The notes below the pieces were generated by a model. It searched no databases, was not told the origin of the DNA, and saw only the letters and a list, made by a program, of their open reading frames with translations. A program made the translations under genes and the position numbers. From contig CALGTK010000084.1 of NCBI GenBank assembly GCA_937904325.1, forward strand, positions 1 through 46,010: a stretch of DNA of 46,010 nt, in the 5' to 3' direction. Shown piece after piece: positions 14,147 to 17,220 of the stretch. The stretch's first letter is position 1. Every line of letters starts with the position of its first letter. Origin of the DNA: an uncultured Planctomyces sp. (GTDB lineage: Bacteria > Planctomycetota > Planctomycetia > Planctomycetales > Planctomycetaceae).

Positions 14147-14727
14147 GGGTATTTGAGAACGCGGAAACGCTTCAAATCTTCGTTGCCGAGGGGAAACTGA
14201 AATCGCAAATGGCATGCCGGTGAGTGTCACAACTGGCGGGAGGTTCAGATGAAGGGCAGAGAGCCCAGAGAGACGGATCAGTCATCGCCGATATTCTGAC
14301 ACAAATGCAGCGACCTGTGAAAGCGAGAACGGATCATCTCTGATTGAGACAGTCATTCCGAAGCTATGCGCGATCAACGCTATGCACGAATTCAACGGGA
14401 TTCGACATTGCAGTTAGAAGCCACCGACACCAAAGGCCGGTAGACCCCGGCAAACCGGACTCGCCAGATGGCAGTAGATCGTCAGGCAATGAAGCCGCCG
14501 AGCGAGGCCACAAACGTCGCAGGAGAACCAAAGTCATTGAAAATGCAGGAACGCCGGTTTGGCAGGATGCAACCCGGAATCATCCGGAAATGTGCCGAGG
14601 ATGCGACAACTGTCAAATTGCTGTTGGCGAAGCTTTCGATGGACCGAATACGCTCGGTACAATCATTAAGTGTCGAGTTTCCTGACCGTTGCTTTTAAGC
14701 GTTGCTCGCAGGTCCGCAGGTTTCCCA
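14147..14727. other. Intergenic region, nothing recognised
   Basis: This stretch separates the divergent DUF1592 and DUF2617 genes. Short open frames are present, but none has family motifs, a ribosome-binding site or a plausible start. I see no strong hairpin or clear promoter. It presumably holds the promoters of both flanking genes. Confidence 0.5.
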
Positions 14728-15270
14728 ATGAATGTAAGCTTCGTCCGACCAGCTGTCTCGGAACTCATGTTCCATCTGTTTGAAAGATCGCTCCATCCCG
14801 AGCTGTTCGACATTCGGAAGCACGACCAGATCCGCCAGCCTGATTACTCGGCTGATATCCGGATTTGCGACTCAGGTCATCTGGTGACGTTTCAGATCGG
14901 CGACTCGATCATTTCTGAAGCCGTGGCCAGCCGTGGTCAGCCACTTCCCGATCAAAACGAGCGGTTCCATCGACGCCTGAAGGGCAGCCGTGACGAGTCG
15001 ATCAAATGCGGTGACAAAATCACCTATCACATGAGCTATCAGGTCGAAAAGCTTTCGCCAGAAGTGTTCCTCAATATGCACGAGGAGCTGCAGAACGACT
15101 GCCAGCGGGCTCCCATTTCGCATTGCTTCAGTTCACCGAATCGGTTGTCGCCGGCTGCTCTAAGCTTCATGCAGACTGACGTGTGGCCTCACAGTCTTTT
15201 GATCCACGCCTTTCACACGTTTCCGGAAGACTGCGCGATCGTAAAAACTCAATCGTTGTTTGAGCTGTAG
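14728..15270 (+). CDS. DUF2617 family protein
   Basis: This 180-residue protein resembles DUF2617 (PF10936), a family of unknown function that I know from planctomycetes and actinobacteria. Recognisable landmarks are FVRPAVSELMFHLFERSLHP at residues 4-23, a central CGDKITYHMSYQVE segment, SPEVFLNMHEEL and the C-terminal FHTFPEDCAIVKTQSL. The frame is open from 14689, but the family N-terminus starts at the ATG at 14728. No signal peptide or membrane segment is visible, so it should be cytoplasmic. It stands alone, with more than 400 nt on either side, so the context does not suggest a role. Confidence 0.75.
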   Translation: MNVSFVRPAVSELMFHLFERSLHPELFDIRKHDQIRQPDYSADIRICDSGHLVTFQIGDSIISEAVASRGQPLPDQNERFHRRLKGSRDESIKCGDKITYHMSYQVEKLSPEVFLNMHEELQNDCQRAPISHCFSSPNRLSPAALSFMQTDVWPHSLLIHAFHTFPEDCAIVKTQSLFEL

Positions 15271-15684
15271 GCATCCTGGCGACAAACCGCTCCATGTGCC
15301 TGTCGCACAAATCGGATGTTTCTTTCGGTGTCACCAATTTTCTTCCGGATTGGGGTTTCATCAGTTTAGTGCGGGCATTATTGGTTCGCTCCTGCGCCGA
15401 ATTGCGGCTGACTGATCCTTACTATCAGGTCGAACCGACGTACGGATGCGGACTCAAAAAACAGCAGTAATTGTTCAATTCCCGCCCTGCCCCGCACAAC
15501 GGGACAATCCGCACAGCTCCGGACAGTCGATAGAACCCGTAGCGGCATCGAATTTCACCGTTCGCCGCCACCGGGAAGAATGTCATCATCCAACACAGCC
15601 AGCCCATACTGGGCGATTCCTCAGTTCCAGGAAGGTCCTTTCGGCTGACGGTTATTCCTCTGGAATGAGCAACTCTGGTCGTTC
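15271..15684. other. Intergenic region, nothing recognised
   Basis: These 414 bases follow the DUF2617 stop. I find no gene, no strong hairpin and no repeat. The frames present are short and lack family features. A promoter for the small gene pair that follows is likely to lie here, but I cannot place it. Confidence 0.4.
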
Positions 15685-15855
15685 ATGTTTCTGAAGAAAC
15701 TTCGCGATCGGTTCCGTTCAGAATACTTACTCGACACACACCTTCAATTTAACAGCTTCGATTGGGATTTTGGCGTGGTTGTCACTAAGACGGCAGACCA
15801 AACTCCTGGTATCGTGACTCGACGTTTCTCCAAGCCCTTCGTGGACGCATCATGA
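15685..15855 (+). CDS. Small protein, 56 aa, first of a coupled pair
   Basis: This short frame (ATG at 15685, TGA at 15853-15855) encodes 56 residues beginning MFLKKLRDRFRSEYLLDTHL. The N-terminus is basic, the middle has FDWDFGVVVT, and the end is RRFSKPFVDAS. An in-frame TGA a short way upstream fixes the longest possible N-terminus. The case for a real gene is its position: its stop overlaps the next start as ATGA at 15852-15855, typical of translational coupling, and a hairpin terminator follows the second frame. There is no clear ribosome-binding site and I recognise no family. Function unknown. Confidence 0.45.
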   Translation: MFLKKLRDRFRSEYLLDTHLQFNSFDWDFGVVVTKTADQTPGIVTRRFSKPFVDAS

Positions 15856-16070
15856 AAAACGCTCCTGGTCTTGTCGTAATTCTGGCAGGTGGATTGACCC
15901 TCTGGGTCATGGCCTGCTTCGCTGTACATGGTCCCGTGATTCTTGCTTACATCGCAATTCAGACCGCCACGTCAGGCATCTTTGCACTGGAAATGCGGCG
16001 CATCGAGAAGTCGATCCCCAAACGGGCTGCTGCAACAGTGAAGTCAGACCCAATGACGCGAGCAGCCTGA
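15852..16070 (+). CDS. Small membrane protein, 72 aa
   Basis: This frame encodes 72 residues with two hydrophobic segments, about residues 6-24 (LVVILAGGLTLWVMACF) and 28-46 (PVILAYIAIQTATSGIFAL), then a basic, polar tail. That is the look of a two-helix inner-membrane miniprotein with a short periplasmic or cytoplasmic turn. Its ATG overlaps the stop of the preceding 56-residue frame, so the two are probably translated in sequence. A hairpin with a T-rich tail begins 75 nt after its stop. I recognise no family. The pair could be a small membrane complex, but that is inference. Confidence 0.55.
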   Translation: MKNAPGLVVILAGGLTLWVMACFAVHGPVILAYIAIQTATSGIFALEMRRIEKSIPKRAAATVKSDPMTRAA

Positions 16071-16145
16071 GCAATCACTTTGCAGCGACTGCCTGGCACA
16101 TCAGCTAGCAGCGGATAAGAAGTCATCCGCAAGCACACATGCTCT

Positions 16146-16204
16146 ACGCCCGATTGACGCAGGTTCGGATCTCTGAACCGCCGGAATCGGGCGTTTTGCG
16201 TTTG
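16146..16204 (+). terminator. Branched hairpin terminator after small gene pair
   Basis: ACGCCCGATT (16146-16155) pairs perfectly with AATCGGGCGT (16185-16194). Inside it GGTTC (16162-16166) pairs with GAACC (16175-16179), giving a branched stem. The sequence runs straight into TTTTGCGTTT. Position and tail fit an intrinsic terminator for the two-gene unit at 15685-16070. Confidence 0.6.
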
Positions 16205-16639
16205 AAGCGTGACGATTGCGAATCAGCCTGGCCTTTCTCAGCATCGATTCGAACAACCAACCAACAAACCATCCGTTCTTTGGTAGCCGAATCCACACTG
16301 ACGACAGGCCGAAATGCGAATTCAAGCGTCCGCTGAGATCGCATTCAAAAGCATACGAACTGAATCAGCTACTCCTCAAACACCAACGGGCATCGAACGG
16401 GCTGCCGGAGAAACACTCAGGAATCACTGCTCGCCATAACTCTTACTAAATCAACACTTTGCAATGACATCTAAATCTTTTTCAACTTGCTAAGGGTCAC
16501 CAGGTGATCCAGATCGCTCAGTTCCGACAGCGCTGATTTTGACGATTTTTCCATTTTCTGGATTTCTCTAACTCCCATAGTAGCGGTGAGTTTCGGCGTC
16601 AATTACCGCCCCCCGAAGGATGCAATTCCGAACGGCGGG
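16205..16639. other. Intergenic region, nothing recognised
   Basis: No gene is supported here. Short frames on both strands lack starts with ribosome-binding sites or any family motif. The bases between about 16440 and 16600 are AT-richer than their surroundings, as expected just upstream of a promoter region. Confidence 0.4.
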
Positions 16640-16667
16640 TTGACAGACCGCAGGCGAGTTTTAAGAT
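16640..16667 (+). promoter_or_regulatory. Sigma-70-type promoter for nrdJ
   Basis: A perfect -35 TTGACA (16640-16645), a 16-bp spacer and TAAGAT (16662-16667) as -10 make the best housekeeping promoter I see in the window. Transcription would start near 16674. It faces nrdJ, and two NrdR-box-like sites follow at once. Confidence 0.55.
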
Positions 16668-16686
16668 TCCCTCCCTCGCTTCTGAG

Positions 16687-16733
16687 TCACTACATCTTGG
16701 GCTTCATTTCACCGGCAACACTACCGATAGTAT
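16687..16733 (+). promoter_or_regulatory. Pair of NrdR-box-like operators
   Basis: Two 16-bp sites resemble the NrdR consensus ACACTATATATAGTGT. The one at 16718-16733 matches 12 of 16 and the one at 16687-16702 matches 10 of 16. They are separated by 15 bp, so they lie on one DNA face, the spacing known for NrdR boxes upstream of ribonucleotide reductase genes. Part of the second site also belongs to an inverted repeat (ACACTACC 16718-16725, GGTAGTGT 16736-16743). NrdR would repress nrdJ when deoxynucleotides are plentiful. The nrdR gene itself is not in the window. Confidence 0.6.
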
Positions 16734-16743
16734 CTGGTAGTGT

Positions 16744-17220
16744 TTCCGACCTGGCTCGGTGTCCCGGATATCGTTCTCGTTTTCATGTTTAATCGCTCGG
16801 TCTTTCAGCCGGTCGGTTCATGAGAGTTCTCGGAGGAGAATTCAGTCGTCAGTCAGGTTTTTTCTGAACCTTCTGGCGGGGCTCACTTCTAAACGCTCTA
16901 GTCTCGGCAACCAAGGGAATGGCATGCGGCATTGTCGCCAGCATGTCGGGATTTCTTAAAGCACCCAATCAATTTCTGCGAGGATTTTGCGCGCAGATGA
17001 AACGCTCACGCATGGATGACTGAGCCGGTGGTTTCGCCTGTTCCCAGCGTCAGTCGCTGTTCTGTCGTTGACCCCGAAACAGAGAAGGATCGGATGAAAT
17101 GGATTATCAGACTGGATAAACGGCAGGAAGCTGAGCACGACGGTCCCATGACGGGACTGACTTTTAAGAACTCAAGATTAGTTCATTGATTTCGTGTGGT
17201 TTGAACAAGGAGAGTGCACG
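16744..17220 (+). other. Long leader of nrdJ with hairpin and strong ribosome-binding site
   Basis: About 480 nt separate the NrdR-like sites from the nrdJ start, and no convincing gene lies in between. A small hairpin (GTCCC 17143-17147, GGGAC 17153-17157) lies near the end. A strong ribosome-binding site, AAGGAG at 17207-17212, sits 8 nt before ATG 17221 and decides the start. I looked for a cobalamin riboswitch because the enzyme needs B12, but found no GCCACTG box and no convincing core. Confidence 0.5.

Follow-up and report, generated by a model that had tools for sequence, protein, structure and literature searches.

A conserved small membrane-protein gene of planctomycetes with a terminator-like hairpin and an overlapping, apparently accidental open frame

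A 72-codon gene, here called p72, lies in a 1.9-kb gap between a DUF2617 gene and the gene for NrdJ, the class II, B12-dependent ribonucleotide reductase, in an uncultured Planctomyces sp. Comparison with related genomes marks it as a real gene under protein-level purifying selection. We consider it probable, at about 80%, that the locus is a single-gene unit consisting of a short leader, p72 and a terminator hairpin, that a 56-codon frame overlapping the start of p72 is open by chance, and that the product has an accessory role at the membrane. According to this reading, the conserved stretch ahead of p72 would carry its start signals, the gene would encode a 72-residue membrane protein, most likely folded as a helical hairpin whose two termini lie in the cytoplasm, and transcription would end at the hairpin, which would set p72 apart from the downstream NrdJ gene with its own promoter. 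The protein would then probably belong to some membrane complex, as a small subunit with an accessory or regulatory role.

The window, meaning the whole stretch of DNA analyzed here, comprises 46,010 nt and is identical to contig C84 of an 8.0-Mb assembly in 488 contigs; its features are listed in Table 1. An earlier note on this DNA had described a transcription unit of two coupled small genes with their own terminator, both frames and the hairpin being contained in the gap. Of this description, p72 followed by a conserved, covarying terminator-like hairpin was retained, while the 56-residue gene and the coupling were not.

Table 1. Features of the window and of the paralog loci (stop codons included)
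Feature	Position	Strand	Evidence or remark
Frame first read as a gene	14344-14685		conserved noncoding DNA ahead of DUF2617 is more likely
Strongly conserved DNA	14560-14700	+	immediately 5' of DUF2617; probably noncoding
DUF2617 gene	14689-15270		upstream flank of gap; PF10936, E 4.3e-15
56-aa open frame, judged not a gene	15685-15855	+	ATG to TGA; G003 comparison, 59-genome search
Conserved leader, probable promoter and ribosome-binding region	15812-15851	+	GGACGCATC before ATG
p72, small membrane protein gene (72 aa)	15852-16070	+	ATG to TGA; orthologs, dN/dS, relatives
Intrinsic-terminator-like hairpin with interrupted T tail	16146-16203 (hairpin 16146-16194)	+	conserved position, covariation
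NrdJ promoter-like site, TTGACA-16-TAAGAT	16640-16667	+	conserved in alignments
Two NrdR-box-like sites	16687-16702 and 16718-16733	+	15 bp apart
Conserved block in long NrdJ leader	16879-16998	+	candidate cis-acting RNA
NrdJ gene	listed from GTG 17194		downstream flank of gap
Paralog neighborhood (Rrf2, protoglobin, chlorite-dismutase-like, sodium:sulfate symporter)	L029 1697-6025; L074		Pfam

Coding evidence for the two overlapping frames

Both frames and the 4-nt ATGA overlap between them are present at the positions given in the earlier note. Neither length nor overlap says much about whether they are genes, as both are common in shuffled sequence. In 300 dinucleotide shuffles of the 1923-nt gap (15271-17193), frames of at least 56 aa numbered 10.5 on average (16 observed) and frames of at least 72 aa numbered 5.8 (4 observed), and a pair of frames of at least 50 aa each with a 4-nt overlap occurred in 39% of the shuffles. 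The two frames are told apart by conservation instead, which makes the locus a clean example of how real small genes can be distinguished from chance ones by conservation rather than by length or an ATGA.

Conservation of the 72-codon frame in related genomes, proposed earlier as a check, was borne out at the protein level. Orthologs were found in all five congeners (61 to 88% identity), and a genus-wide search recovered the p72 region in 6/6 genomes, the window's own included. The dN/dS ratio was 0.05 to 0.29 in all 15 pairs of these genomes, and third codon positions accounted for at least half of the changes in every pair (8/4/35 changes by codon position between G003 and G005; 18/16/34 at the low end, between G000 and G001). 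With a 17-member profile, p72 relatives were detected in 40 of the 170 genomes that make up the taxonomic family set, representing 11 of 58 genera (E<=0.001). Across the class, 27 of 297 genomes had matches (E<=0.01), 3 of them outside the taxonomic family, two of which (E 1.5e-5 and 4.2e-5) may be due to chance. Ten named contig records matching the family were all planctomycete MAGs. At 219 nt, p72 exceeds the usual minimum length of gene callers. Among the papers listed in literature searches, none is evidently devoted to this gene family.

Among 59 genomes searched for the 56-residue frame, only G003 matched besides the window's own (E<=0.01), with no match in the other 57. G003 is 66% identical over the frame; its copy has no start codon and carries an in-frame TGA at codon 9. 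Across the remaining 55 codons, 30 changes fall evenly on the three codon positions (9/11/10), with a dN/dS of 0.71. No protein match was obtained at the locus in G001, G002, G004 or G005, where likeness is confined to a terminal stretch of approximately 14 codons that overlaps the conserved DNA 5' of p72. Stops or frameshifts in relatives without protein-level conservation had been named beforehand as evidence against the frames, and by that test this one fails, since the only congener with a protein match along it, G003, has no start codon and carries the stop. Ranked among blocks of real genes, its codon score lies at the 19th percentile, and 5% of open blocks in a wrong frame score at least as high, an ambiguous result that by itself does not reject a gene. 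Overall, the 56-codon frame, which runs across the p72 leader, appears to be open by chance.

Two translationally coupled genes, with ribosomes finishing the 56-codon frame and re-initiating at the ATGA, would be compatible with the openness of that frame, with a codon score inside the range of real genes, with the identity of G003 over its length and with the TGA kept at the overlap in 6/6 genomes of the genus; a gene new to, or translated only in, the window's species would also escape this kind of comparison. We nevertheless regard coupling as highly improbable. The first frame is not conserved as coding, being interrupted and without a start in G003, free of codon-position bias, and recognizable in the remaining four congeners only by its tail. 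The ATGA itself is present throughout the genus because the ATG of p72 followed by A forces a TGA.

Leader, hairpin and the downstream NrdJ gene

In the preferred single-gene reading, the conserved DNA at the end of the 56-codon frame belongs to p72. Over positions -40 to -1 relative to the p72 start, the mean majority-base fraction was 0.84 to 0.98 per 10-nt block, compared with 0.52 to 0.66 from -200 to -41, in five of the six genomes of the genus (G001 was left out of this profile). The string GGACGCAT(T/C)ATG is kept in all six, G001 included. These approximately 40 nt are likely to hold the start signals of p72, probably a promoter and a ribosome-binding region. A leader peptide of about 13 to 14 codons (GTG 15814 to TGA 15855), translated so as to tune the p72 start, would explain why conservation of the longer frame is limited to about its last 14 codons. 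It draws further support from the presence of GTG or ATG, in 5/6 genomes, either at the position of the GTG codon or beside it, and from a stop overlapping the p72 start in 6/6. However, G005 has CTG at the start codon, the changes as judged by eye are not biased toward silent positions, and conserved promoter or ribosome-binding DNA accounts for the same pattern, so that such a peptide appears unlikely.

A regulon sharing the p72 promoter was also considered. The pattern TGACTC-N17-21-CGTGGA had 9 matches in the window's genome versus 3 for the reversed control. Of the 8 matches other than the window's own, 7 lay inside open frames of 405 to 1009 codons and the eighth in a 79-codon frame, and none had an ATG at the p72 distance; no regulon was seen. 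A tighter version of the pattern matched the window's own site only.

The hairpin 3' of p72 is 49 nt long and begins 75 nt after the stop codon, as previously described, with a minimum free energy of -29.4 kcal/mol. It is followed directly by TTTGCGTTT, in which the T run is interrupted. A hairpin was found 73 to 75 nt after the p72 stop in 5/6 genomes of the genus. The exception, G001, has no homologous hairpin at this point and an unrelated strong one at +203. In the alignment of the other five genomes, 7 of 18 pairs were changed on both sides with pairing kept, and 93.3% of cells were paired, compared with 29 to 48% in slid controls. The covariation score of 0.339 (0.192 in shuffled alignments) was reached by 1 of 500 shuffles, and further pair types were at least as numerous in 42 of 500, the structure tested being derived from the same sequences. 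The 9 bases that follow the best hairpin contain 4 to 6 T in each of the five genomes, the hairpin of G002 being longer. A simple terminator scan limited to loops of 3 to 8 nt did not list this hairpin.

A dispersed repeat was rejected as the origin of the hairpin, of which the window's genome holds one full copy and none elsewhere. The second-best match extends over 27 nt, and inspection by eye revealed no such hairpin around it.

From its kept position and covariation, the hairpin is probably the terminator of p72. The interrupted T tail and the length of the hairpin would also suit an element acting in 3'-end RNA stability or processing, in a unit that continues to NrdJ. This alternative is unlikely, given that a conserved promoter-like site and NrdR-like boxes belonging to NrdJ itself lie approximately 450 nt downstream and that the p72 relative in G011 does not adjoin NrdJ.

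The case for the NrdJ promoter rests on conservation, as a promoter scan of the region returned 1 site versus a mean of 1.9 in shuffled sequence. Within the region 16640-16743, the two boxes that follow resemble the NrdR consensus in their letters, and they probably are NrdR boxes. NrdR sites are described in PMC12051234 as pairs of 16-bp boxes, usually 15 to 16 bp apart. As NrdJ has a conserved promoter-like site and NrdR-like boxes of its own, p72 is probably a separate, single-gene transcription unit. The better start for NrdJ is ATG 17221, with an ATG at that point in 13 of the 14 leaders printed.

The long NrdJ leader contains a 120-nt conserved block, found across three genera (g1, g57 and g7) in 9 genomes (E<=8.1e-24), 8 of which were used to build its model. 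Matches were obtained in 22 genomes in total, those in the other 13 being weak (E 0.006 to 0.09). In an alignment of 8 of 11 leaders (the G002 fragment, G315 and G031 were left out), the block folds into a junction in which 4 of 23 pairs were changed on both sides. Its covariation score was reached by 1 of 500 shuffles, its number of further pair types was matched in 227 of 500, and no Rfam match overlapped it. We regard it as a candidate cis-acting RNA of the class II ribonucleotide reductase.

Predicted protein and its likely role

Residues ~6 to 47 of p72 (about 42) are mostly hydrophobic and are split by a central His-Gly-Pro, and basic residues occur at both ends. In the 17-row alignment, M1, L7, W18, H26, G27, Y33, G42 and F44 are invariant, and the motif W...C...HGP....Y......TSG.FA is typical of the closer members. 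The histidine is not kept across the whole family, as distant members (genus g51, G096, genus g4) have Asn-Gly-Pro or neither.

No family in Pfam or NCBIfam matched p72 at E<=0.1. PHROGs gave a single match, which at E 0.054 was not above the family cutoff. Searching the 17 alignment rows against Pfam yielded 8 families with one member each (best E 0.015), and the p72 profile matched solved structures only at chance level (E >=0.66). The result is a conserved planctomycete family of small membrane proteins that is nameless in the libraries searched. p72 is ordinary in kind and a modest addition to the small proteins without assigned function.

The earlier note had seen a two-helix membrane protein, a description that holds in part. 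The hydrophobic stretch divided by His-Gly-Pro makes two helices plausible, but AlphaFold2, run with 11 sequences, drew a single continuous helix over residues 7 to 54 (mean pLDDT 76.3, pTM 0.39; pLDDT 91 to 96 for residues 11 to 40). This model neither shows nor excludes a helical hairpin. Judged from the sequence, the likeliest fold of p72 is a helical hairpin that has both termini on the cytoplasmic side and its His-Gly-Pro turn outside.

Bacteria possess small accessory inner-membrane proteins such as CydX, KdpF and AcrZ. Like these, p72 is short, hydrophobic and alpha-helical, has no domain of known function and is easily overlooked. The resemblance need not mean a relationship; p72 has no Pfam match, and the closer members have a core motif of their own. 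CydX, KdpF and AcrZ have named partners. For p72, no neighbor was common to all carriers read. The likeliest role for p72 is that of a small inner-membrane protein with an accessory or regulatory task.

Gene order and a paralog beside protoglobin

Gene order around p72 is kept among close relatives. In genera g1 and g57 and genome G011, DUF2617 lies upstream of p72 in all 8 testable genomes (G000 to G003, G005, G011, G143 and G340; the G004 contig ends too early). NrdJ lies downstream in 7 of 8, G011 being the exception (G002 was left out because its contig ends too early). The conserved upstream neighbor is a 193-aa protein and not a p72 relative. A functional tie between p72 and the class II ribonucleotide reductase or DUF2617, as members of a shared pathway, would account for this order, which is kept in g1 and g57 and, for DUF2617, also in g7. 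However, neither gene was found nearby in 16 further genomes with p72 relatives, some of whose loci are cut by contig ends. The family is also independent of NrdJ, as five genomes of genus g51 (G059, G060, G100, G247 and G258) carry it with no NrdJ match at E<=1e-20 among the matches listed. Together with a paralog located elsewhere, beside protoglobin, these observations leave such a tie with a low probability.

The paralog is 38 to 41% identical to p72 and has the same core motif, but differs in its longer C-terminal tail and in a quite different neighborhood. It was found in 5/6 genomes of the genus, including the window's own, and not in G002, a genome of 59% completeness. In all five, it lies 3' of a protoglobin gene that is accompanied by a divergently oriented Rrf2 regulator. 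Genes for a chlorite-dismutase-like protein and a sodium:sulfate symporter occur beyond it in 4 of the 5; they were not found in the G004 locus. Pfam was applied to the G003 copies of these neighbors, and tblastn served to recognize the others. The Rrf2 and protoglobin matches of the window's own genome are split over two frames. A tree of 26 family members was discarded as a means of dating the duplication; 2 of its 23 inner branches were well supported, and several were very long.

With the paralog following protoglobin and p72 self-contained beside an oxygen-independent class II ribonucleotide reductase, the two could form arms of an undescribed planctomycete family of small membrane proteins serving redox or gas (nitric oxide, oxygen) stress. 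We hold this to be doubtful. If true, the link to protoglobin would offer a handle on gas sensing in planctomycetes.

Other neighborhoods were recorded alongside. In genus g51, DUF1559 adjoins members of the p72 family and was left uncounted, as it is a very common planctomycete family. In genus g4 (loci L084, L081 and L085), the p72 relative adjoins a protein of ~240 aa, the G008 copy of which had no Pfam match; by eye, this protein is membrane-like.

Upstream of DUF2617, a frame (14344-14685) was taken for a conserved gene in a first tblastn reading. It is broken in G002, and its codon score lies under the 5th percentile for blocks of real genes; conserved noncoding DNA is the more likely explanation. 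The strongly conserved stretch immediately 5' of DUF2617 is probably noncoding and may be the promoter or leader of that gene.
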